Shown piece after piece: positions 16,523 through 28,975 of a stretch of DNA of 64,000 nt. This DNA comes from Chloroflexota bacterium. GTDB lineage: Bacteria; Chloroflexota; Chloroflexia; Chloroflexales; Herpetosiphonaceae. The stretch is taken from the NCBI GenBank assembly GCA_020161265.1, contig JAIUOC010000004.1:310001-374000 (forward strand), in the 5' to 3' direction. The notes below the pieces were generated by a model. It worked only from the letters and a program-made list of their open reading frames with translations. It was not told the DNA's origin and made no database searches. Positions within the stretch are counted from its first letter, which is position 1. The number at the start of each line of letters is the position of its first letter. Position numbers and translations under genes: made by a program.

Positions 16523-17059
16523 TTAGGCGGTTTGTCGATTATTGGGTAGAGGCATGCGTTCCCAAACTTGCCAAATCAGCAGCAACAGAATCATCCATTG
16601 CAATGGTTGGCGCACGGCAATCATTGCCGCCACAAACGAGCGCGATGATGGAATATGCCGATAGAGCCAATCGATAGCAACCCCAGGCCACGTGCTAGCA
16701 GTCGCCAGCCAATCGCCAACCCCAACCGTGTTTGCCAAGAGATACACCCCGTAGATCACCAAACCAAGCGCCAAGATGCTGGCAAAGCCACTGAGGCCAA
16801 CGAAGGCGCGGCGTTGCAACTTCCAGTGCTTGCTGCGCACCAACATTGGTGGCATCAAACCTGGCACTAAGGCCAAAAGTTTAGCAGTCAGATCATCGGG
16901 AACACTAGTAATCATCGCTGAGCGCACGACGGTATCGAAGGCTTCAGCGCGGCGAGCACGTTGAGCACAGCTTTCACATTCAGCAAGATGGTCTGTAAGT
17001 TGTGGATCAAGCGCTTCTTCACGCAGATCATAGTTGGTACGATGTTCACAACGCTTCAT
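16523..17059 (-). CDS. Anti-sigma factor with zinc-finger (ZAS) domain
   Basis: The 178-residue protein has an H-x3-C-x2-C motif (H24, C28, C31) in the anti-sigma zinc-finger context LTDHLAECESC, then a membrane helix at about 87-112 and a second hydrophobic segment at about 152-166. Such proteins hold a cognate ECF sigma factor at the membrane until a signal releases it. The sigma gene lies 8 nt upstream on the same strand, which is strong context for the pairing. The signal is unknown. Confidence 0.88.
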   Translation of the reverse strand: MKRCEHRTNYDLREEALDPQLTDHLAECESCAQRARRAEAFDTVVRSAMITSVPDDLTAKLLALVPGLMPPMLVRSKHWKLQRRAFVGLSGFASILALGLVIYGVYLLANTVGVGDWLATASTWPGVAIDWLYRHIPSSRSFVAAMIAVRQPLQWMILLLLIWQVWERMPLPNNRQTA

Positions 17060-17067
17060 GACACACC

Positions 17068-17733
17068 TCAGCGCCAGCCTAGGGCAAATGCAAAGCGACC
17101 GCGGTTTGGCCGTTCATCGGTAACAGGTTCACGTTTGGCGGGCAAAATTGCTTCCGATTGATTGGCACCTAAGAGCAAGGCAAGCCGCTCTTTACCACGG
17201 CGAATATAGCTTTTGACCGTATTCAGCGGTACTTCCAAAATTTCAGCAATATCATTGTACCGCAAATCGTCAAAATAGTAGAGCGTTAATGCTAAACGAT
17301 AATGATCTTCCAGTTTATCCAAGGCTTGGGTTACTTCGGCCCGCAACTCGTGGTTGGTTGCCACTTCTTGAGGGTCGGCCCAACGGTTATCATCGGCAAT
17401 GCTCGATAATGGATCAACGGTTTCACCATCGTCATCGGTCATTGGTGGCATCTCCGGAGCACGGCGGCCACGTTTGCGCAGCTCATCACGCCCAAGGTTG
17501 ATCACCAAACGATAGAGCCACGTGGTAAAACGACTTTCGCCATTATACTGGCCAATCACCCGTAACAGCTTGATACAAGCATCTTGGGTTAGGTCAGCGG
17601 CATCTTCGGGCTGGCGCATCACGCTCATGGCGATGTTGTAAATATAATGTTGTTGGCTAACAATCAATGCTCCCATTGCTTCGGGGTCATTGCGTTGAGC
17701 GCGATATAAAATTTCTGTAGTTGGTTCGGCCAC
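17068..17733 (-). CDS. ECF RNA polymerase sigma factor
   Basis: The 221-residue sigma-70-family protein has region 2 (LTQDACIKLLRVIGQYNGES through RFTTWLYRLVIN) and region 4 (YNDIAEILEVPLNTVKSYIRRGK), with no region 1.1 or 3. It is an extracytoplasmic-function sigma factor. A GTG at 17733 with AAGGAG 9 nt upstream (VAEPTTEILYRAQ) is a better start than the ATG 19 codons earlier. The C-terminus has a 30-residue basic extension. The adjacent zinc-finger membrane protein is its likely anti-sigma factor. Confidence 0.93.
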   Translation of the reverse strand: MAEPTTEILYRAQRNDPEAMGALIVSQQHYIYNIAMSVMRQPEDAADLTQDACIKLLRVIGQYNGESRFTTWLYRLVINLGRDELRKRGRRAPEMPPMTDDDGETVDPLSSIADDNRWADPQEVATNHELRAEVTQALDKLEDHYRLALTLYYFDDLRYNDIAEILEVPLNTVKSYIRRGKERLALLLGANQSEAILPAKREPVTDERPNRGRFAFALGWR

Positions 17734-17900
17734 AGTATACAACTCCTTGCCATCAGCGTGGCTTCTGTTGCTTGAGACGCTGACCCGCAAAAAATAGTTG
17801 CAGCAATTCGCAGCGATTAATCACGATTATGCCAAAATTGCTCAATTTGCAAAATGATCTTTCGATCTGTCGCCACTAGTCCTTTAGGACGATCAAGCCA

Positions 17901-17956: not shown

Positions 17957-18766
17957 TTAGCGTAAGCCGAAGCGCCGCACAATCCGCACAATCCAGGCTG
18001 TTAGCAAAGGATCGGGTAGACCATCTTCGTTCAGCCACGCGCCACTTGGTTGTTGCAAATTGCGTAGCAAATTAATTGCCTGCGTCACGGCGCGGGTCAT
18101 CCGGGGAATCCGTGCAATGCCCGCTGCATTTAGCATCACTGCGAGGCTTGGCGCATCCCAATCAGTCGAAAGCAAATCGCCTAAGCCGCCCAACATGCGC
18201 TTGACTGGCCGACTTTCGCGGTGACCCAACAAAACCGCTGCCAACATAGCCCAACCAGTTGCCTCAACTCGAAAGCCTGGCAATAAGCCGTTATTGGCAA
18301 TTTGGCCCAGCAACCAAGTATTGGCTTTATCTGCCGCCACATTGACTTCGGGGTTATCCAACAAGGCTAGGCTGGCCGAACAAACAGCGGTCGTGTAGAT
18401 CAGCGCGGCATCCGACTCGCTATCCATCCACAAGGGCGGGCTATAGATCGCTAAATTGCTGTTTTCGCGCCACCAGCCACGCGGCGATTGAGCATCGAGA
18501 ATAAAGCGGCTGGCCACAGCTACTGCCGGATGATCGCTAGCCTCAAGTTCGACAAAATGGCGAATAATGTTGCAGCTATCGTTGAGGGTGCTCGGACGGC
18601 CAGTCACGCCATTCAGCGGAAAACCACCATCGTCGTTTTGCAAAGCGGCTAATTGATCAAGCAGTTCGTCATCTGCTGGAGTTGCCTCAAGCATGTGAGT
18701 TATTTTGGCTTGGGCTAAAACATTGCCCGATTGTTCAATCCATTGAATTGCTTCTGGAATACGCAT
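17957..18766 (-). CDS. Prenyltransferase/terpene-cyclase-like alpha-toroid protein
   Basis: The 269-residue protein contains repeats typical of the alpha/alpha-toroid superfamily: LAALQNDDGGFPLNG, DAQSPRGWWREN and LRNLQQPSGAWLNEDG, each a QxxxGxW-like turn after a helix. It has no signal peptide and no DXDD or CGEQ catalytic motif that I can see, so an enzymatic role is not supported. It lies downstream of the alpha-2-macroglobulin-like gene, a family with a related toroid domain, 44 nt away on the same strand. Confidence 0.65.
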   Translation of the reverse strand: MRIPEAIQWIEQSGNVLAQAKITHMLEATPADDELLDQLAALQNDDGGFPLNGVTGRPSTLNDSCNIIRHFVELEASDHPAVAVASRFILDAQSPRGWWRENSNLAIYSPPLWMDSESDAALIYTTAVCSASLALLDNPEVNVAADKANTWLLGQIANNGLLPGFRVEATGWAMLAAVLLGHRESRPVKRMLGGLGDLLSTDWDAPSLAVMLNAAGIARIPRMTRAVTQAINLLRNLQQPSGAWLNEDGLPDPLLTAWIVRIVRRFGLR

Positions 18767-18810: not shown

Positions 18811-21800
18811 TCAGCGAATTAGCACTGGCGGCACGGTTTGTTTAAGCTCAACAATCTGGCCGCCACTGGTTAATTGGGGCGCTGGCCAAGCAAATTGGCC
18901 CTTGTGGCGAGCTACGCCCAATAGTTGAATGGGGTAAATGCCAGCCCGAACATTGGCGGCACTGAATTGACCATCATGCCAATTCAAGCCTGTGGCGGAA
19001 CCAAGCTGCCACTCCACACCACTCGGCGCAGCCAAGCGTAGTTGTAATAATGACAGATCTTGTTCAAGCACCAAATAGCCTTGCCACAGCCATTGCTCAC
19101 CATAACCCAATTGATCTGCGCTGCTGGAATGGAGCAAGTGGGCTTGTGCCGCTGGGTTTTGCCAGCTAGCTTGACTCGCCAACAAGATTGGGCCATTCGG
19201 CTCGATCTGCACGTTAAGTTGGTTGGTAATTGGCAACGTTAGGCTGCTGGCTTGATCATAATCACTCAAGGCTGCGCCATTCAAGCCCAAACGATAATCC
19301 CCACGAGTTGGAAAATCTTGTTGGGTTAGCTGAAATACCGCTACGCTACTTGGCAAATCTTCCCATGCCGTGCCATTCCAGCCCTCGGCGATCAGCTTGA
19401 GCACTTGGGCACGTAAGGCTGAACTTGGCTGGCTGCGCTCAAAAATCAAGCCGATCAGCGCCGCTTGGCGGGTGCGGCTCATCCAAGCACTTGGCTCTAG
19501 GGGTTGAACCAACAGCTGGCGCACTTCAGGCAAGTATTGATCAGCCTGAGGTGAATCGAGCAGCACCAAGGCATAAATCAAGCGCAAGCGTTGAGCCGTG
19601 GTTAATTGGCGATTTTTGAGTAAGCTGGTAATTTGAGTCTCAACTGTTTTGCCGCTGTGCGCCAAGGCCAACAGCATTTCGCTGCGCAAATCGGGATCAA
19701 GTGGACTAACCAAGGCTAACCAACGAGCGGCTTGAGCTTCGAGTTGGCGCAGCTGGGGCGAACGTTGCTCGGTCGCAATCAGTTGCACAATCAAGGCAGT
19801 CAATTGCAAATCGCCCGCCTGCGCATCCCAACTCCAGCTGCCATTGGTAAGTTGCTGCTTGGCCAATAATTCAATCTCGGCCTGAGCAGGCTGAGCTGCA
19901 TAACGGGCTAGCGCAATTCGCCCAGCCAACGTCAGGGGATCATCGCCCTGCAATTGGCTGGGTAAGGCTTGGCTGGCTTGGGCTAAACTGGCAATCGCAA
20001 TATTAATCGAGGCCGCTTGGTTGGCCGTCGGCACTTGCCAAGTAATATCGGTCGCTTCGGTCAACAAACGGCTTTGTTGCAAACGCACTTGGCTTGGTGG
20101 CTGAATCGTCAGGGCTTTGGTGATAATTTGGGTTTGTTGATTAACTTCAATGGTTGCGGTAAGTGTGGTCGTGCCAAGGTTGGTGGCAACCAAGGCTTGA
20201 GTTGTAGTATAAATTCGACCACTATTGCCAGTGGTTGGCTCGGCCAAGGCCGCAAGATAGGCCGAATCAACATTTAAGCGTATGTTGGGAATACCGCCAC
20301 GGGTTGCTAGCAAATTCAAGCGAGCGGTCACGCTCAGTTGATCGCCCACAATCAAGCGTTCAGGCAACAGCATTTGGGCATCGATCAAGGGATTTGCTGC
20401 ATACAACGTCGTGGCTTCGGCGCTATTCAAGCCATCGCTGGCTAAGGCCTGAATGCGCCAACCCTCGCCAAATCCCTGTAAATCGAGCACTGCTTGGCCA
20501 TTGCTGGCTGTGCGGACAAGCCGCTGTTGGCTAGCTGACGTTTGGATTGACTGAAAACTCAAGCCAACCATGCTGGCAACAGGCCGACCAGCGCGTTGGG
20601 TTGCCAGCACCAATTGCGAGCCGCTGACAACCATCGTCAAATCGAGCGGCGCAACCGCTTGGAAGGGAATTTGGCTGCTGCTACTGATTAATTGTTCAGC
20701 ATCAAGCCAAGCTAAAGCCACCTCTAATTGCTGAGTACTGCTCAGACTGGGCGTAATTGCGATGCGCTGACCAGCTGACCAAGGTTGAATTTGCTGGCGA
20801 ATGCTGCTACCTTCAAACCAACTGACCAAAACACTGGTGGCCGCTAGATTGGTCAGCGGCGCAAGGGCAAGTTCAGTCGTTTCGACCAAGCTACTTTGGC
20901 TCCGACCAATTAATTGATCGCTCCTTGCCCCCAGCACCCACAACGGCACTTCCACGCTGGCAGCATCTGGGCTACTGGCGCGAATCAGCCACAGGCCCGC
21001 CCGCAAACCATTGGTGCGCCAAACGACCTCGCCAGCAGCATTGGTACGTAAACTTTGGGTGCTACTAATTGTGCCTTGAACTTCGATTTGCAAAGCGCGA
21101 TTGGCCAACGCCATACCCTGTTGATCGCGCAGTTGGAAGCTGATCGTGGCAGGCTGATTGGAATTGAGCAACTGTTGCTCGGCCTTGGCAGCCAATAGCG
21201 CAGGATAGCGAATTTGGCTGGGATGGTAGCTAACTTGCTCACCAAGCTGAATTTCGAGCACATAATCGCCCAACAAAACTTGGCTTTGTTGATAATCGAA
21301 CTGGGCAATTCCAGCGGCGTTGCTTTGCCAACTACCAGCAGTAACTTGGCGATTACGCTGATCGAGCAAGCGCCACAGGCCATGTTGGTTCGGTAGGTTG
21401 GTGTTAATTTCGGCTGGCACAATTGTATTGGTCACTTGCAATTCGGGCAAAACTACGCGATAGGCCAAATCGGGCTGATTGACTACAAAATTTTGGCTAG
21501 CAATCACTTGGTTGGCATAGCGCAGCCGCACTTGATACAAACCAGGTTGAACATCGGCGGCAAGTTGCACGTTGGTTGTCCAGAGGCTTTGGCTTAGCAC
21601 CAAGGTTTGTTCGGGCGCAATCGCTTGGCCACTGGGATCAAGCACTGCCAAGGTTAGGGTTGGCGTAGTCACCTCATCCGCAGCAAACTCACTACTGCCG
21701 ATAATCGTCAGTTGTTGGGTAGCTTGGTAATTTTGGCGGTCAAGCAGCAATTGGCTGCTCAAACTTGGCGCTTGACGTTGTGGTCGAATAATCGTTTCAG

Positions 21801-23586
21801 CGACAATCGGCGCTTGCGGCTCGCCGCCAAGCAACACCAAACGCCCGCTACTGCCCTGAATTGAGCTTTGCCAAAGCCCTTGCTGATCGCTCTGGCCTGT
21901 GGCAAGTTGATTTGCACCCGCCAAAATGCTCAAATTTGTGGCGGCAACTGGTTGGCGATTAGCCAGATCAACAATCCATGCTTGAGCTTGTTCGGGGGTC
22001 GCCAATAATTGTGCTCGATAGGGTGTCCAAATCAACACATGTTGCACAAGCTCGGCATTGGGAGCTTGCACTTGCAGCAATAACGCCGCTTGAGTTGGGG
22101 TAATGCTAATCGTTCGTTCAGGGCCAGCGGCAATTTGCCATTGCTGTTGCGGCTGTAAATTGTAGCGCTGAGGATTGAGCGGGGTTTGTGGTTGTTGCAA
22201 AGCCGCCGCCAAAACCGCCCGATCAACCGCATACAAACTCGCAGTGAGTCGGCTATTTTCGCGCCCGCTCAGCCGCAACTCGACGGTAGTTTCCGGCAAC
22301 AACAACGAATAAGCCGCACCCTCAATTTGCAATGGCTGCACTTGGGTTTGGGTGCGAAAGGTCAGTGGGGCAGAGCCAGCCAAGGTCAGTGTGTAAACCG
22401 TGCTTGGTTGCCATGCAGCGCTAATCAAGGCCTGCTGATTATTGATGTTAATCGCCACGTTCGCAACTTCAGGCTCGATAAACAATTGCTCGGTAAGTTG
22501 CTGGCGCTCAGGCGCTTGGTTGAACAGCAAGCGCAGCGGATCATCGACGGCCAAACTGCCGCCACGGCCTGGCACTGAGCCAATTAATTGCAAGTTGGAC
22601 TGAATTTGCCAAACGTGGGTGATCGGCTGGCTAAGTTGTAGGCTGGTAGTCAGCGTTTGAGCTGGCCAAGCAGCCTCAGGTAAGGCTTGAATGATGGTTT
22701 GTGGTTGTGGATCAGGCTGATATTGCACCTGCCAGGTTGCGCTCACAGCGGGAGTAAATTGAATCCGCTCGATCAATTGTTGGGTTGCGGTTTGATCAAT
22801 CAAACCCTCAAAAGCCCATTCCAAGGCTTGATCAGCCTGAAGGATTTGGGTCGTTGGCGGAGCAATCAGGCTTGGCTCGCTCACCTGCACTTGCCATTCG
22901 GTGGTCTGAACCGGAATGCCCAGCAGATCGTTGAGATTTTGCAGCTTGAGTTGATATTGCTGACCAATTTGCCATTGCGCCTGCACCAAAACGCTGCGAT
23001 CATCTAGCCAACGCACTTGGCTAGTGGCATTTGGCTCGATGCTTAATTCGGCTAAGCCACGTTCGGTTTGGCTGGCATAATCGATCATCGCCCGATTGAA
23101 ACGCAACAAAATTGGGGTATTGGGGGCAATAATCGCATTGGGTAGCGGTGAGCGAAACACTAACAGCGGGGCAGGAGCGGCGGCAAATTGGGTTGTCACG
23201 GTCGTTGCCAGGGTTTGGCGCAACATCGATTGAGCAGTTGGGCGTAATTGCACCGTCACGGTTGTGCCTGGTGTCCAGCCAAATTCAGGCTGCCAACGGG
23301 CACGGGCACGGCCTTCCCAATGCCAACGTCCACGCACCGGCGGCGTAATCACCAAAGCATCCTCGACGCTCGAGCGATCCATCGGCAGATTGAAATTAAA
23401 TTCCAAGGCCGTGGCTGGCGGCAATTCGCGGCTACCAGCCAACGGCGTTAAGCGCAAAACGCTTGGTTGTGGAACCCAGCCAGCGATACTCGCCACGATT
23501 ACGCCAAGCAGCGCCGTGCCCAACAAACTAATTGTTGTTAGAAGCCAACGCCACCACCATCGTGCTAGTTTTTCGAGCAATCGCAT
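18811..23586 (-). CDS. Alpha-2-macroglobulin-like exported protein, no thioester, no cysteine
   Basis: This 1591-residue protein has a membrane anchor near residues 13-37, then a bacterial Ig-like domain (SbsA type, about 42-135) and many beta-rich segments in the style of macroglobulin domains. A helical toroid-like part spans about 1230-1420 (QQLTNGSWSWDAQAG), and a beta-rich C-terminus follows. Bacterial alpha-2-macroglobulins trap proteases, usually with a CGEQ thioester. No such motif and no cysteine at all is present, so trapping would have to be non-covalent. It is Gln- and Leu-rich. The start has an AAGGTGAG site and lies 16 nt after moaE. Confidence 0.72.
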   Translation of the reverse strand: MRLLEKLARWWWRWLLTTISLLGTALLGVIVASIAGWVPQPSVLRLTPLAGSRELPPATALEFNFNLPMDRSSVEDALVITPPVRGRWHWEGRARARWQPEFGWTPGTTVTVQLRPTAQSMLRQTLATTVTTQFAAAPAPLLVFRSPLPNAIIAPNTPILLRFNRAMIDYASQTERGLAELSIEPNATSQVRWLDDRSVLVQAQWQIGQQYQLKLQNLNDLLGIPVQTTEWQVQVSEPSLIAPPTTQILQADQALEWAFEGLIDQTATQQLIERIQFTPAVSATWQVQYQPDPQPQTIIQALPEAAWPAQTLTTSLQLSQPITHVWQIQSNLQLIGSVPGRGGSLAVDDPLRLLFNQAPERQQLTEQLFIEPEVANVAININNQQALISAAWQPSTVYTLTLAGSAPLTFRTQTQVQPLQIEGAAYSLLLPETTVELRLSGRENSRLTASLYAVDRAVLAAALQQPQTPLNPQRYNLQPQQQWQIAAGPERTISITPTQAALLLQVQAPNAELVQHVLIWTPYRAQLLATPEQAQAWIVDLANRQPVAATNLSILAGANQLATGQSDQQGLWQSSIQGSSGRLVLLGGEPQAPIVAETIIRPQRQAPSLSSQLLLDRQNYQATQQLTIIGSSEFAADEVTTPTLTLAVLDPSGQAIAPEQTLVLSQSLWTTNVQLAADVQPGLYQVRLRYANQVIASQNFVVNQPDLAYRVVLPELQVTNTIVPAEINTNLPNQHGLWRLLDQRNRQVTAGSWQSNAAGIAQFDYQQSQVLLGDYVLEIQLGEQVSYHPSQIRYPALLAAKAEQQLLNSNQPATISFQLRDQQGMALANRALQIEVQGTISSTQSLRTNAAGEVVWRTNGLRAGLWLIRASSPDAASVEVPLWVLGARSDQLIGRSQSSLVETTELALAPLTNLAATSVLVSWFEGSSIRQQIQPWSAGQRIAITPSLSSTQQLEVALAWLDAEQLISSSSQIPFQAVAPLDLTMVVSGSQLVLATQRAGRPVASMVGLSFQSIQTSASQQRLVRTASNGQAVLDLQGFGEGWRIQALASDGLNSAEATTLYAANPLIDAQMLLPERLIVGDQLSVTARLNLLATRGGIPNIRLNVDSAYLAALAEPTTGNSGRIYTTTQALVATNLGTTTLTATIEVNQQTQIITKALTIQPPSQVRLQQSRLLTEATDITWQVPTANQAASINIAIASLAQASQALPSQLQGDDPLTLAGRIALARYAAQPAQAEIELLAKQQLTNGSWSWDAQAGDLQLTALIVQLIATEQRSPQLRQLEAQAARWLALVSPLDPDLRSEMLLALAHSGKTVETQITSLLKNRQLTTAQRLRLIYALVLLDSPQADQYLPEVRQLLVQPLEPSAWMSRTRQAALIGLIFERSQPSSALRAQVLKLIAEGWNGTAWEDLPSSVAVFQLTQQDFPTRGDYRLGLNGAALSDYDQASSLTLPITNQLNVQIEPNGPILLASQASWQNPAAQAHLLHSSSADQLGYGEQWLWQGYLVLEQDLSLLQLRLAAPSGVEWQLGSATGLNWHDGQFSAANVRAGIYPIQLLGVARHKGQFAWPAPQLTSGGQIVELKQTVPPVLIR

Positions 23587-23602: not shown

Positions 23603-24019
23603 TCAACGCTGACCCACCCATTCTTGCGAACCATCGGCCCAGTGCTCACATTTCCAAATTGGCACAACCACCTTGATTTGATCCATCAGCCAGGCCACCG
23701 CAGCAAATGCCGCGCCACGATGAGCCGAGCCAATGGCAATCAGCACAGCCGTTTCGCCAATCTGCAACACGCCAACCCGATGGTGAATCGCCACCTTGCC
23801 AATGCCAAATTGGGATTGGGCTTGCTGCGCCAACAAGACTAGTTGCTGCTCAGCCATCTCGGGATAGGCTTCGTATTCCAAAAAGGCCGTAGCTCGCCCA
23901 CCAAAGTTATTGCGAGCTACGCCTTCAAACAGCACAATCGCCCCATGGCCAGGGTCGCTGACCAACTGGCGCAACGGCTCGGGCTGCAAAACTGCCTCGG
24001 TTACCAAAAATGCTTGCAC
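23603..24019 (-). CDS. moaE: Molybdopterin synthase catalytic subunit MoaE
   Basis: MoaE forms molybdopterin from cyclic pyranopterin with sulfur carried by MoaD. The protein (138 residues from this start) shows the family sequence GAIVLFEGVARNNFGGRATA, LEYEAYPEMAE, VAIHHRVGVLQIGETAVLIA and AHRGAAFAA, with the catalytic Lys in WLMDQIKVVVPIWK. A GTG at 24019 follows GGGGG at 5 nt. A GTG at 24031, overlapping moaD by 11 nt, is the alternative. It is coupled to moaD. No other moa genes are in the window. Confidence 0.93.
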   Translation of the reverse strand: MQAFLVTEAVLQPEPLRQLVSDPGHGAIVLFEGVARNNFGGRATAFLEYEAYPEMAEQQLVLLAQQAQSQFGIGKVAIHHRVGVLQIGETAVLIAIGSAHRGAAFAAVAWLMDQIKVVVPIWKCEHWADGSQEWVGQR

Positions 24020-24020
24020 C

Positions 24021-24260
24021 TTAGCCCCCACTCACTGGCGGAATCAAGGCCAGTTCGTCGTTGGGCTGAAGCGTCGCCTCAAGCGTTACATATTGGCGAT
24101 TGATCGCATACGCTAAGCCAGTTAAAGGCAATTTGGGATGCAGTTCAGCTAATTGCGCCAGCGCCGTGCCGACCGTCGCGGTCTCAGCCACATCCAAGCT
24201 CAGGCTGGATTGATTGAGTGCTTCGCGCAAGCCAGCAAATAAACGAATGCTAATGATCAT
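24021..24260 (-). CDS. moaD: Molybdopterin synthase sulfur carrier subunit MoaD
   Basis: This 79-residue ubiquitin-fold protein begins with [15 protein letters not shown] and ends in PPVSGG. The terminal Gly-Gly is the thiocarboxylation site needed for sulfur transfer to MoaE. Its start overlaps the hisF stop as ATGA, so translation is coupled to histidine-gene translation, an unusual neighbour for molybdenum cofactor genes. Confidence 0.93.
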
Positions 24261-25048
24261 ACAGTCCTCGGCGTGCGGCGCATTGGAATGCCTTGATCTG
24301 CCAAATATTCTTTGACGGCTTCGACCGTGTAGGTGCCAAAGTGAAAGATCGAGGCGGCCAACACGGCATCGGCTTTGCCTTCGTGCAATGCAGCGAGCAA
24401 ATGTTCGGGCTTGCCAGCACCACCAGAGGCAATCACGGGCACGCCAACTTGTTCGCTAATCGCCGATAATAATTCGTTATCGTAGCCAGCACCAGTGCCA
24501 TCGGCATCCATGCTGTTGATCACCAACTCGCCAGCGCCCAAATCGACCACGCGTTTGGCCCATTCAATTGCATCCAAGCCGGTTGGTCGTGGATCGCGCC
24601 CCGTATGCGTGAAAACATTCCATTGGCTGGGTTGGCCTGGCTCGTTGATTCGACGCGCATCCATCGAAAGCACGATACACTGCGAGCCGAAACGCTTGGC
24701 TCCATCCTCGATCAATTGCGGGTTGAGCACCGCAGCGGTATTGATCGAAACTTTATCCGCACCAGCTCGCAACATTCGATACATATCATCGACCGTGCGA
24801 ATGCCGCCGCCCACCGTTAGCGGAATAAAGACCTGCCGCGCCACATTCTCAACCACTTCGACCATAATATTGCGCTCATCGGATGAAGCGGTAATATCGT
24901 AAAACACCAATTCATCAGCGCCCGATTCGTTGTAGAAGGCCGCTAATTGCACAGGGTCGCCAGCATCGCGATGGTTGAGAAAGCTGATGCCCTTGACCAC
25001 GCGCCCAGCCTTCACATCCAAACAAGGAATAATTCGCCGTGTCAGCAT
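24257..25048 (-). CDS. hisF: Imidazole glycerol phosphate synthase cyclase subunit HisF
   Basis: HisF closes the imidazole ring, using ammonia delivered from HisH, to give IGP and AICAR. The 263-residue TIM barrel has catalytic D11 ([13 protein letters not shown]) and D130 (SMDARR), plus the phosphate-binding VGGGIRT and ASGGAG loops. Length is standard. It starts 2 nt after the coiled-coil gene and overlaps moaD. hisH and hisA lie upstream in the same direction. The other his genes are not in the window. Confidence 0.97.
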
Positions 25049-25050
25049 GC

Positions 25051-26148
25051 TTAGATCTCGCTTCCACGTTCCAAAATTTCGCTTTGGGCAATTTGTAAAC
25101 GGCCTTGAATTGCCGCCAACATATCGCTCAATGCCTGAACTTCACGCCGCTCAAAATCTTGCATACGGCTCAAGTTGGAGATTTGGGCATCTTCGAGGCG
25201 GTTTTGGGTGCGGCTGAGCTTCGATTCATACTCATGACACCAGGTATCAATCCGCTCCAACGAACCCATAATTTGGCGCAAATGGCTTTCATCAGCACTG
25301 CGCAACTCATCAAGTTGCTCGTTATGTTGACCGCGTAATTCTTCCAAGCGTTCTTGGTTCATCAAGAAGCGCTCGGTACTGACCCGCTCGATCCGCTTGA
25401 TTTCGGCAATCATATCGGGCAGTTGGGCCCGCACAACCTCAATTTGCTCGGGCAATGGTTCGATTTGAACTTCCAAGCCTTTTTGCAAATCCTCAAGCCG
25501 CTCGAAGCGCGAACGCAACTCGCGAATACCTTCGCCAATGTCGATCACCATTTGTTGAGTTTCGACGGCTTGGCGACGCATTTGTTGCTTTTCAATCTGC
25601 ACATCTTCGCTGAGTTTGCGCATATCTTGCACAGTTTCAGCATCAGCGGCGCGAAGGTGTTCAATCTGACCGCCTAGCGAACGATAATGCTCGGTTTGCT
25701 CACGCATCCGCGCCTCAAAATCGCTCATGCGCTGTTCCATCAATTCAATTCGGGCAAACCAGCTTTGTGATGTTTGTAAATCTTGTTTGCGATGCTCTTG
25801 CTGTTGCGCCAACGAAAGCTGAATATCGCGAATTGGCTTGACGCTATCGTCCATGCGCACGGTGCTGTTGGCAATTTCCTTGCGCAAGGTAGTTAATTCG
25901 CGACGATAGCTTTCCAAGGTTTGGGCTTGCTCTTGGGCTTGGCGCTCGATCATGCCTTGTAGTTGCGCCACGACCGCCTCAGATTTGCGTGATTGCTCGG
26001 TTGACCACGCGTATTTGCCGTTTACGTCTTTGATTTGACGACGCAATTCATCGATTTGATTCTGTAGATAGAGCAATTGCGATTGCTCTTGGGCGCGTAA
26101 ACGCTCCTCTTCATAACGAGCAGTAATATCTTGTTTCGATGACGACAC
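25051..26148 (-). CDS. Long coiled-coil protein inside the his gene cluster
   Basis: The 365-residue protein is almost wholly coiled coil (for example [17 protein letters not shown] and [10 protein letters not shown]-type heptads), with no membrane segment, cysteine cluster or enzymatic motif. It starts with GTG 2 nt after the hisA stop. The GGAGG ribosome-binding site lies within the last codons of hisA, and hisF starts 2 nt after its own stop. Its expression is therefore tied to HisA and HisF. Whether it organises the His enzymes or merely shares the transcript cannot be read. I recognise no family. Confidence 0.8.
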
Positions 26149-26150
26149 GT

Positions 26151-26873
26151 TTAGCCTCCGTGTTCAATCGTTTGAATTGCCGAGGCCAGATCGATATGGC
26201 CTGTATAAAGTGCCGTGCCGATAATTGCCCCACTAATGCCCAGTTCAGCCAAACGCGCCAAATGTTCAACGCGGGCAATCCCGCCAGAAGCGATAATCGC
26301 TGGACCATTGGGAGTTACCAAGGCGGCAGTTTGAGCATAATTTGGTTCGCTCAAGGTGCCATCACGGCTAATATCAGTATAGATGATCCGCGCAACTCCG
26401 AGTTGGCCCATTTGTTCAGCCAGTTCGGTTGCACGTTGGCGGCTGCTGGCCAACCAGCCTTCGGTCGCCACGACCCCATTGCGAGCATCAATGCCAATCG
26501 TAATCGCCTTACCATATTGGCGCACCAATTCGGCTACCAATTCAGGGTTGCGCACCGCCACTGTGCCCAAAATCACATCGCTCACGCCAAGTTCAAAAGC
26601 GGCGGCAACACTGGCTGCATCGCGCAAGCCACCACCAAGTTGCACAGGAACACTGACCGCTTTGGTAATCGCGGCAATCGTGCTGGTTTGGGTTGGGCGA
26701 CCAGCTTTGGCTCCATCAAGATCAACAATGTGAATACGGGCAGCGCCTGCTGCTTCCCACTGCTGGGCGACCGCCACCGGATCATCGCCATAGACAGTTG
26801 TTTGTTCAAAATCACCTTGCACCAGCCGTACACAACGGCCATCGCGCAAATCGATTGCTGGTATAAGTTGCAT
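26151..26873 (-). CDS. hisA: ProFAR isomerase HisA
   Basis: HisA converts ProFAR to PRFAR by an Amadori rearrangement, the step before HisF/HisH. The 240-residue TIM barrel has catalytic D8 ([12 protein letters not shown]) and D130 ([11 protein letters not shown]), VQLGGGLRD and [13 protein letters not shown] phosphate loops. Length is standard. The ATG follows GGAG at 4 nt. Its last codons (HGG-stop) double as the ribosome-binding site of the coiled-coil gene. Confidence 0.97.
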
Positions 26874-26879
26874 GGTTCT

Positions 26880-26996
26880 CCTAAAAGTAGGGGCTAGGGG
26901 TCGGGGACGAGGGATCAGTTACCCCTGCCATATGTATTTTCTCAATAATTAATCATCGTTATTTTAGCTGCTATTCTGATCCCTGACCCCTACCAA
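26880..26996. repeat. Composite intergenic repeat, copy 2, running into hisH
   Basis: The hisH-hisA gap contains GTAGGGGCTAGGGGTCGGGG and related text at 26886-26920. A second block (TGATCCCTGACCCCTACC, 26978-26995) lies inside the 3' end of hisH and encodes its last residues and part of its stop context. It belongs to the GATC/GGGG module of the window-wide repeat family. Confidence 0.65.
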
Positions 26997-27594
26997 CTGC
27001 GCCCTTTACCCAATTCCCCAGCAATTTTAGCCCCCATTGGCCGCTTTTTTCGGGGTGAAACTGGACGGCAGTAATATTATCGCGGGCAATCGCTGCCGGA
27101 AAATTCAGGCCATACTCGGTACGGCCAGTAACCAAAGCTGCATCGTCAGTTGCTAAATAATAGGAATGCACAAAATAAAATTCAGCTCCGTTGGGAATCC
27201 CATTCCACAAGGCACTGCCATCATGCTGCACACCATTCCAGCCAATTTGTGGCACTTTCAAGCCTTGATCGAAGCGGCGAATCGTGCCTGGCACTAAACC
27301 AAGGCATTCGTGCAAGCCAAATTCTTCGCTTTGCTCGGCCAACACTTGCATACCTACACAAATGCCCAAAAATGGCGTTCCGCGAGCAATCACCTCGCGA
27401 ATTGCTGAATCCATGCCCATTTCACGCAACGAGCGCATGGTATCGGCGGTTGCGCCAACTCCAGGCAAAACGACAGCCTGCGCCGCCCGCACTGCCGCTG
27501 GATCAGTCACCACTTCGATCGGGGCTTGAACATATTCCAAGGCTCGCACCGCATTGGGCAAGTTGCCAGCTCCATAATTGATCACTGCAATCAT
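26971..27594 (-). CDS. hisH: Imidazole glycerol phosphate synthase glutaminase subunit HisH
   Basis: HisH hydrolyses glutamine and channels ammonia to HisF. The 207-residue class I amidotransferase has the nucleophile Cys in [12 protein letters not shown] and the His/Glu pair in VQFHPEKSG. It starts with [11 protein letters not shown], the usual HisH N-terminus, after an AAGGAC site. The last residues, GRGQGSE and stop, are encoded by repeat DNA (GGTAGGGGTCAGGGATCAG), so the natural end has probably been replaced after the typical LLGNWVKG end. Confidence 0.96.
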
Positions 27595-27604
27595 AAGTGT
27601 CCTT

Positions 27605-27775
27605 GTATGTATTCGAGGGGCCAGAAGTCAGGGGCGAGGGGTCAGTTTTTAATCTCTTGAATAATGGATGCTCGCCATATTGTATGGAGCGTTTGCTATA
27701 CCGAAAACTCCAAGCCTGACCCCTGACAACTAGCCCCCGATCCCTATGCTCTATGCTCTATGTTCTTCGTCCTTC
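27605..27775. repeat. Composite intergenic repeat, copy 3
   Basis: The 179-nt gap upstream of hisH is largely repeat: GAGGGGCCAGAAGTCAGGGG, CTGACCCCTGACAACTAGCC and a CTATGCTCTATGCTCTATG run with TTCTTCGTCCTTCATCCC at its end. The last block forms the HDAC stop codon. I see no gene in it. Confidence 0.65.
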
Positions 27776-28811
27776 ATCCCTTCAAAAGCGGATGTTCGCG
27801 GCGGAGATGCTCGATCAGCCAGGTAACATCGGGTTCTGGGGTATGACTGACTTCTTGATTGAAAATCGGGGCAGGCTGACCAGAAACCCATGTTTGCAGC
27901 GTTGCAGTGAGGCTTTGAGCGAGGGCTTCGAGGTTGTAACCACCCTCAAGCAAGCCCACCAAGCGTCCGTCGCAGCACTCGGCGGCTAAATTATACACGA
28001 TCGACGATAGCTGGGCATAACCGCCAGTTGAGAGCGCCAGATTCCCCAATGGGTCGTAAATATGCGCATCGTAGCCCGCCGAGATAATCAATAACTCAGG
28101 CTTGAAGCGCCGAATAGCTGGGGCAATCGTTTGTTCAAACACCAGATGAAAGCCCATATCGCCAGTCAATGGGCGTAATGGTAGGTTGAGGGTCGTGCCC
28201 AAGCCAGCTTTCGCGCCCATCTCCTTCCAATGGCCAGAGTTAGGCCAAAGCGGCCAGCCATGGGTCGAGATGTAGAGCACATCGGGGTTTTGATAGAAAA
28301 TATCTTGGGTTCCGTTGCCATGATGTACGTCCCAATCCAAAATTGCCACTCGTTTGAGGCCATATTCACGTTGAGCAAAGGCTGCAGCAATTGCCGCATT
28401 ATTGAACAAGCAAAATCCCATAGCTTGGTCGGCGGTCGCATGATGGCCTGGTGGGCGAACCAAAGCAAAACTATTGGCATGCCGACCACTGAGCACTGCA
28501 TCAGTCGCGACAATCGCGCCGCCAGCAGCTAGTTGGGCAATCTCGACCGAATCTGGCAAAATATAGGTCTCAGCATCAGCCCAATCGCCAAATTGGGCCA
28601 TCCGTTGCAGCGTTGGCAGATGACTGGGCACATGCACCGCTTCGATTTCAGCAGCAGTTGCATGGCGTGGTGCAAGCGAGGTTAAATGTTGTTGCAATTC
28701 ATAATCAGCCGCTAGCATGGCATGAATCGCCCGTAGCCGATTGGCATTTTCGGGGTGCTCAGGCTGATCGTGGTCAAGATAATGATCGTGTGAAATGAGA
28801 GCGAGGCTCAT
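27774..28811 (-). CDS. Histone-deacetylase-family (AcuC/APAH-like) amidohydrolase
   Basis: These zinc enzymes remove acetyl groups from lysines, acetylpolyamines or similar amides. The 345-residue protein has the complete active site: RPPGHHATAD with the His pair, ILDWDVHHGNGTQ with zinc ligands Asp and His, SAGYDAHIYDPLG with the second Asp ligand, and LLEGGYN with the transition-state Tyr. The ATG at 28811 has GAGGAG upstream. An in-frame extension of 34 codons lacks one. The stop codon lies in repeat DNA. The target substrate is unknown. Confidence 0.93.
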   Translation of the reverse strand: MSLALISHDHYLDHDQPEHPENANRLRAIHAMLAADYELQQHLTSLAPRHATAAEIEAVHVPSHLPTLQRMAQFGDWADAETYILPDSVEIAQLAAGGAIVATDAVLSGRHANSFALVRPPGHHATADQAMGFCLFNNAAIAAAFAQREYGLKRVAILDWDVHHGNGTQDIFYQNPDVLYISTHGWPLWPNSGHWKEMGAKAGLGTTLNLPLRPLTGDMGFHLVFEQTIAPAIRRFKPELLIISAGYDAHIYDPLGNLALSTGGYAQLSSIVYNLAAECCDGRLVGLLEGGYNLEALAQSLTATLQTWVSGQPAPIFNQEVSHTPEPDVTWLIEHLRREHPLLKG

Positions 28812-28975
28812 ACGCGAAAGCTCCTCAGCGAACAATACTAGGCCTAGCTTAATCGAGGGCTGGCAAGCCTGCAACCAACCAACGATGGAATTTTCAAATG
28901 ACGCTTGAGCCAAAATACAACGTTACCCAACCAACATCCGTCCTAAGACCGATCATGGGTAGCAAAATTCTTTGT

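Follow-up and report, generated by a model that had tools for sequence, protein, structure and literature searches.

Apparent loss of both the thioester and the bait segment in a predicted membrane-anchored alpha-2-macroglobulin homologue of Herpetosiphon

The window, the whole stretch of 64,000 nucleotides analysed here from a member of the Herpetosiphonaceae, encodes a large protein that, judged from its sequence family, is a bacterial alpha-2-macroglobulin (A2M) homologue. Bacterial macroglobulins are divided into Type I, with a thioester and a bait, and Type II, with a bait only. What is new here is that the bait segment appears to have been lost in addition to the thioester. The main interest lies in this joint loss and in a shift of conservation: the best-conserved part is the N-terminal Ig stack in the lineage of the large protein and the TED in a second, longer Chloroflexota lineage. 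A lineage with neither thioester nor bait would show what use remains for the macroglobulin frame without trapping, and a single phylum would then supply the full series (both parts, bait only, neither) for testing the role of each part. The most likely role of the protein is not covalent trapping but that of a scaffold or receptor anchored at the surface. Features of the locus are collected in Table 1.

Table 1. Features of the macroglobulin locus, with positions in the window unless a locus handle precedes them
Feature	Position	Strand	Basis
Macroglobulin-like protein, 1591 aa, Cys-free	18811..23586	(-)	ORF with ATG start; profile of relatives matches YfhM
Basic N-terminal segment and TM helix (residues 1-37), membrane anchor	23476..23586	(-)	hydropathy
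About four Ig-like (Big_5) domains, residues 39-425	22312..23472	(-)	Big_5 match and repeat model
MG domains, residues 426-1000	20587..22311	(-)	sub-threshold Pfam matches and family matches
Counterpart of the bait of other macroglobulins, only 14 residues (1012-1025)	20512..20553	(-)	hmmsearch alignment, 48 proteins
A2M/CUB-like region, residues 1026-1196	19999..20511	(-)	aligned in A1; PF00207 in 16/26 members, E<=0.1
TED-like helical region without CxEQ, residues 1197-1425	19312..19998	(-)	alignment and motif
C-terminal MG-like domain, residues 1426-1591	18814..19311	(-)	profile reaches near YfhM C-terminus; bMG10 in 19/26
Alpha/alpha-toroid protein, 269 aa, squalene-hopene cyclase-related, neighbour	17957..18766	(-)	profile, hydropathy, distribution
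ECF sigma factor, neighbour	17068..17790	(-)	sigma70-ECF E=1e-31
Likely anti-sigma factor, neighbour	16523..17059	(-)	RsrA-type match E=2e-4, below cut-off; membrane helices by eye
MoaE, upstream neighbour	23603..24031	(-)	PF02391 E=7.8e-36
his cluster: hisF	24257-25048		name by eye
his cluster: hisA	26151-26873		name by eye
his cluster: hisH	26971-27594		name by eye
Glycoside-hydrolase-like gene after macroglobulin (other genomes)	L060:14545-16332; L063:13574-15379; and equivalents		

The reading frame of the large protein opens with ATG, and its single stop codon is its end. The window belongs to a Herpetosiphon genome: the copy of the large protein in H. aurantiacus DSM 785 is 95% identical, and those of H. 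giganteus, H. geysericola, and H. llansteffanensis are 79% identical. Herpetosiphon is a gliding bacterium. Hydropathy (19-residue) peaks at 2.11 at residue 16 and stays at or below 1.49 beyond residue 60. In the Ig-like stack, Pfam Big_5 matches residues 40-134 (E=5.1e-13), and a repeat model matches residues 40-137, 139-217, and 346-410. A fourth repeat at residues 245-317 is non-significant (E 0.78) and lies in register with four clear repeats of a relative (L060). The following MG domains, bMG3 (532-575), MG2 (615-701), and Big_1 (802-872), fall below the Pfam gathering scores in the large protein alone; at family level and E<=0.1, they are matched in 18, 25, and 25, respectively, of the 26 relatives that make up alignment A1, which was used as a profile.

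Because the large protein alone passes the Pfam gathering score for Big_5 and Big_10 only, the A2M assignment rests on the family profile. Relatives were found in 44 of 60 genomes, its own included, some of them weak (down to E=1.7e-4). Among the sequences of the PDB, the match of the A1 profile to E. coli YfhM (4rtd) has E=2e-61 and spans profile positions 515-1745; human C4 and A2M rank lower. Among the A1 members, Pfam matches at E<=0.1 comprise Big_5 (26/26), bMG10 (19/26), A2M (16/26), and the bait-region domain, BRD (16/26). Through the alignment of the family profile to YfhM, the MG, A2M/CUB, TED, and C-terminal MG domains are found in the order of the superfamily, behind the Big_5 stack. 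The first-pass annotation had called the protein A2M-like with a helical toroid-like region remaining, and both calls are supported by this evidence, the second as a TED-like helical region. The alignment and a DGGW-type motif agree with the toroid fold of the TED, the motif DGGWGWW being replaced by NGSWSW in the large protein. An AlphaFold2 model of residues 420-1591 from five Herpetosiphon rows has a pLDDT of 35, too poor for a fold search; it places 11 helices at residues 1188-1400, with pLDDT of only ~23-53 there.

The thioester motif CxEQ is absent from all 26 members of the lineage, and the large protein has no cysteine, so the earlier claim that it forms no thioester is borne out. PF00207 and PF07678 have no match in its own genome (each matches in 4 of 14 control genomes), and a long-lineage protein, L152, matches them with E 3.5e-23 and 4.8e-19, respectively. 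A search of the same genome for the codon pattern of YPYxCxEQ, made without a positive control, returned none.

The bait-region family PF07703 has no match in the large protein. The gap at the bait was taken as the residues between the strands before and after it in an hmmsearch alignment of 48 proteins; the counts include the flanking strands, derive from a model built on the large protein's own lineage, and ignore the short second domain rows of L151, L159, L162, and L076. Counted in this way, the gap is 14-16 residues in Herpetosiphon and 11, 22, and 26 in three other genomes of its family (f1). The six f3 members have 17, 17, 17, 18, 19, and 66 residues, and all 13 f4 members of the lineage have 36-75. 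The references are longer: 80 in E. coli YfhM, 81 in E. coli YfaS, and 72-118 in 20 long-lineage Chloroflexota proteins. Between the TED start and the DGGW motif lie 50 residues in Herpetosiphon, against 53-67 in other members of the lineage and 64-76 in YfhM, YfaS, and the long lineage. The whole lineage lacks the thioester; a short bait occurs in f1 and in all but one of the six f3 members. From the bait lengths (f4 36-75, f1 11-26, five of six f3 17-19) comes the order of losses in a tentative history, to which we give slightly less than an even chance: a protease trap became a non-trapping surface scaffold, the thioester going first and then the bait, while conservation moved to the Ig stack.

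The large protein is placed by its sequence in a Chloroflexales lineage separate from the longer lineage, part of which keeps CxEQ. A search of the phylum with A1, in which at most two candidates per genome were scored, gave matches in 161 of 251 genomes, longer proteins among them. These long proteins (e.g. L152-L155, L160) share a homologous core (371-597 bits) and a DGGWGWW-type motif with the lineage of the large protein, and the two that were scanned also have an N-terminal Big_5 stack. They differ from the large protein in their wide bait gap, in a CxEQ kept by 11 of 20 fetched open frames in a YPYxCTEQ-like setting, in having the TED as their best-conserved part, and in clear matches to the A2M, bait-region, and TED families (PF00207, PF07703, PF07678) in both proteins scanned. 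The long lineage was not found in any of the six Herpetosiphon genomes; there, a long-lineage query of which all candidates were scored returned only the N-terminal part of the large protein. One other genome of the family (G007) carries both lineages. The long-lineage macroglobulins of two f2 genomes (G021, G024) share 57-58% identity with their G007 counterpart, though these genomes belong to a different family.

A quick tree of the cores (LG+G4, 43 of the 48 proteins) splits the two Chloroflexota lineages with support of 96 and 99. Close relatives of other members (b_L067, b_L074, b_L063, b_L073, aN_L168) were omitted from it. Herpetosiphon sits on a long branch of 1.43 changes per column. 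Because the E. coli branches are long and 37 of the 43 rows are of odd composition, only this split is taken from the tree.

Conservation is distributed differently in the two lineages. In the lineage of the large protein, mean identity is 42.3% in the Ig stack, 33.3% in the TED, and 22.5% in the bait-CUB part, and in the long lineage it is 42.4% in the TED and 29.0% in the N-terminus, the two sets differing in species and having been chosen by the analyst (11 of 19 f3/f4 members against 11 of 20 long-lineage proteins). The remaining f3/f4 members were left out as close relatives. The large protein has a dN/dS of 0.112-0.130 overall in three comparisons and of 0.05-0.16 by region, so purifying selection acts along its full length. 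With dN/dS near 0.12, the gene is not decaying; a pseudogene was rejected on this value and on the freedom of its copies from internal stops.

One of the closest known systems, E. coli YfhM (ECAM, Type I; PDB 4rtd, 5a42, 4ziq), shares the order of MG, A2M/CUB, TED, and C-terminal MG domains with the large protein. Unlike YfhM, which has CxEQ and an 80-residue bait gap, the large protein lacks both, and an Ig stack precedes its MG domains. Genes for pbp1C neighbour many, but not all, Type I bacterial macroglobulins. The yfhM gene lies beside pbpC, whereas the immediate neighbours of the large gene are MoaE and the toroid protein, and pbp1C was not among the immediate neighbours scanned (MoaE, toroid protein, ECF sigma, and anti-sigma factor). 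The anchor is a shared trait: YfhM is held outside the cytoplasmic membrane, as described in PMC4498604, and the same is predicted for the large protein.

It is somewhat more probable than its competitors taken together that the protein is a membrane-anchored, outward-facing A2M homologue whose trapping parts have been lost and which is used as a surface scaffold. The MG ring and the toroid would form a rigid frame, with the Ig domains as its stalk. This frame could bind a partner, such as a wall polymer, a secreted enzyme, or a surface protein, by other means than covalent capture, and binding would proceed with no rearrangement triggered at a bait. The scaffold is favoured because the bait is gone, the families encoded beside yfaS are unmatched, and the Ig stack is the best-kept part. 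A narrow search of the open-access literature returned no paper pairing Herpetosiphon with a macroglobulin, a narrow phrase search none describing a macroglobulin that lacks the bait region, and a narrow Chloroflexi search, by titles only, none on this subject.

Absence of CxEQ need not mean absence of trapping, because the Type II protein MagD traps a protease without a thioester, as stated in PMC5764988. The large protein could accordingly be a MagD-like, non-covalent protease trap protecting the surface of a bacterium that lives among lytic enzymes, a reading that we consider unlikely. It is of the same superfamily, carries a membrane anchor, and lacks CxEQ, as do P. aeruginosa MagD, according to PMC5764988, and E. 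coli YfaS, by its open frame. Against this, Type II macroglobulins occur in multi-gene clusters and retain a bait region, the latter as given in PMC5764988, and the gap of 14 residues contrasts with the 81 of YfaS. A cleavable loop could nevertheless lie elsewhere in the large protein. In E. coli, four families have their genes next to yfaS (DUF1175, DUF2300, DUF2135, and DUF2138), and we take these to be also the mag partners; none of them has a match in the genome of the large protein, and each matches in E. coli. YfaS also sits on a different branch of the tree and does not join the lineage of the large protein, an observation weakened by the long branches.

A more specific variant of the scaffold has the macroglobulin hold or protect secreted glycosidases at the surface. 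In the sister families, the macroglobulin gene and a glycoside-hydrolase-like gene downstream on its strand form a conserved pair, seen in 17 of 24 f3/f4 loci (directly adjoining in 12, with one ORF between in 5), and an 18th such locus is found in G027. The encoded proteins are 534-690 aa long, match Glyco_hydro_cc and Cellulase in the two copies scanned, and have a signal-like N-terminus by eye. In Herpetosiphon, however, no such gene is adjacent, only distant homologues being found elsewhere (best E=1.1e-27), and adjacency is not binding. This role is less probable still than a Type II trap.

The first-pass annotation had suggested a split system of the large protein and its toroid neighbour. 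Here the small protein would dock on the large one and supply its missing toroid or thioester-domain function. Of this idea, the adjacency in Herpetosiphon and a shared toroid signature stand; distribution, hydropathy, cyclase kinship, and dN/dS oppose it, and we regard it as very improbable. The two genes lie on the same strand with a 44-base gap in the window, and they adjoin in 7 of 9 f1 genomes, namely the six of Herpetosiphon and G008, the exceptions being G006 and G007. Comparison of the toroid protein with the TED by hhalign gives a probability of 80 over 49 columns, although two toroids may share such a signature. In G008, a small-protein query matches the large protein in its TED (E 1.4e-4). 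TED_complement is weakly matched by 2 of 10 small proteins, and SCO2321_fam is found in the small protein as well as in 11 of 26 large ones.

Beyond the family, the linkage of the pair is not conserved. All six f2 genomes hold the toroid, none of them matching the large protein, whereas it is missing from all 45 f3/f4 genomes, even though the large protein has matches in 35 of these. Three of the f2 toroid holders (G018, G021, G024) match a long-lineage macroglobulin, a point in favour of the split system, so a toroid for which neither the large-protein nor the long-lineage query returned a macroglobulin is found only in G009, G012, and G015. In the six f2 genomes the toroid family sits beside other genes. 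The gene beside the macroglobulin thus differs between families, which argues against a fixed two-protein machine.

The properties of the small protein itself point the same way. By hydropathy, from which its compartment is judged, neither an export signal nor a TM helix is seen in it, whereas the large protein has an N-terminal TM helix. It has two cysteines and no CxEQ. Its nearest solved kin are squalene-hopene cyclases: its profile matches 1gsz with E=3.8e-16, and all 10 members of its family match PF13243 (SQHop_cyclase_C) at E<=0.1, the copy in the window scoring 16.8 bits where Pfam asks for 26.1. Alpha/alpha-toroid repeats are common to 1gsz and the toroid protein, the former having 631 residues and the latter 269. 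An AlphaFold2 model of the toroid protein (pLDDT 50) was too poor for a fold search. The toroid is also much more conserved than the large protein, with a dN/dS of 0.02-0.03 against 0.11-0.13, roughly fivefold apart. It is probably a separate cytosolic protein that has its fold class in common with the large one and is encoded beside it in some genomes of the family. In G006, a genome that is 75% complete, the toroid gene (L056:8753-9581) is split in two by a stop; either genuine pseudogenization or an assembly error may account for this.

Between the toroid and sigma genes lies a promoter-like site, from a scan that gives 10 sites against 5.5 expected. MoaE is also found upstream of the large gene in G007 and G008, and in the window (23603-28913, MoaE included) it lies between the macroglobulin gene and the his cluster. 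Within that cluster, positions 25051-26148 encode a coiled-coil-like protein of 365 aa with 12.6% Gln, which is also present in the other Herpetosiphon loci and in G008.

Composition had drawn attention to the large protein at the outset. The translation does contain no cysteine in 1591 residues, as the first-pass annotation reported, and cysteine is absent also from the Herpetosiphon copies found (L001-L006 and L048-L051, from six genomes, some represented twice). Background values were taken from 40 stretches of 20 kb of the same genome together with the window, with ORFs called by length and the exported class set by a hydropathy rule. Cysteine makes up 0.79% of residues in the 585 called ORFs of at least 150 aa and 0.62% in the exported class, so about 10 would be expected in the large protein under independent draws. 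Cysteine is nevertheless absent from 12 of the 73 exported ORFs that reach 300 aa and from 4 of the 15 that reach 800 aa, the large protein being counted in both; a Cys-free exported protein is therefore not rare in this genome. The relatives are Cys-poor as well, with 0-6 per open frame across all 26 members of A1. The claim that the lack of cysteine is itself notable does not survive these counts, and it was rejected as the main finding.

The very high Gln content is upheld. The large protein has 187 Gln (11.8%) and 10 Lys (0.6%), and among the 325 ORFs that are 300 aa or longer (mean Gln 5.48%, sd 1.99) it is one of two with a Gln content at least this high. Among the proteins seen, high Gln is limited to the genus, the rest of the lineage having 2.4-7.9%.

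Outside the genus, two macroglobulin-like proteins have no cysteine, L055 and L169. L169 is a 2045-aa open frame of the long lineage, from a genome of the same order, and has no CxEQ. Elsewhere in Herpetosiphon, one locus (L124, 3310-17093) holds five consecutive exported ORFs of 714-1058 aa, three of them Cys-free, with examples of 1058 and 1049 aa, and two with one cysteine. A GTWS stretch near the N-terminus is common to four of the five, and the run probably consists of tandem paralogues.
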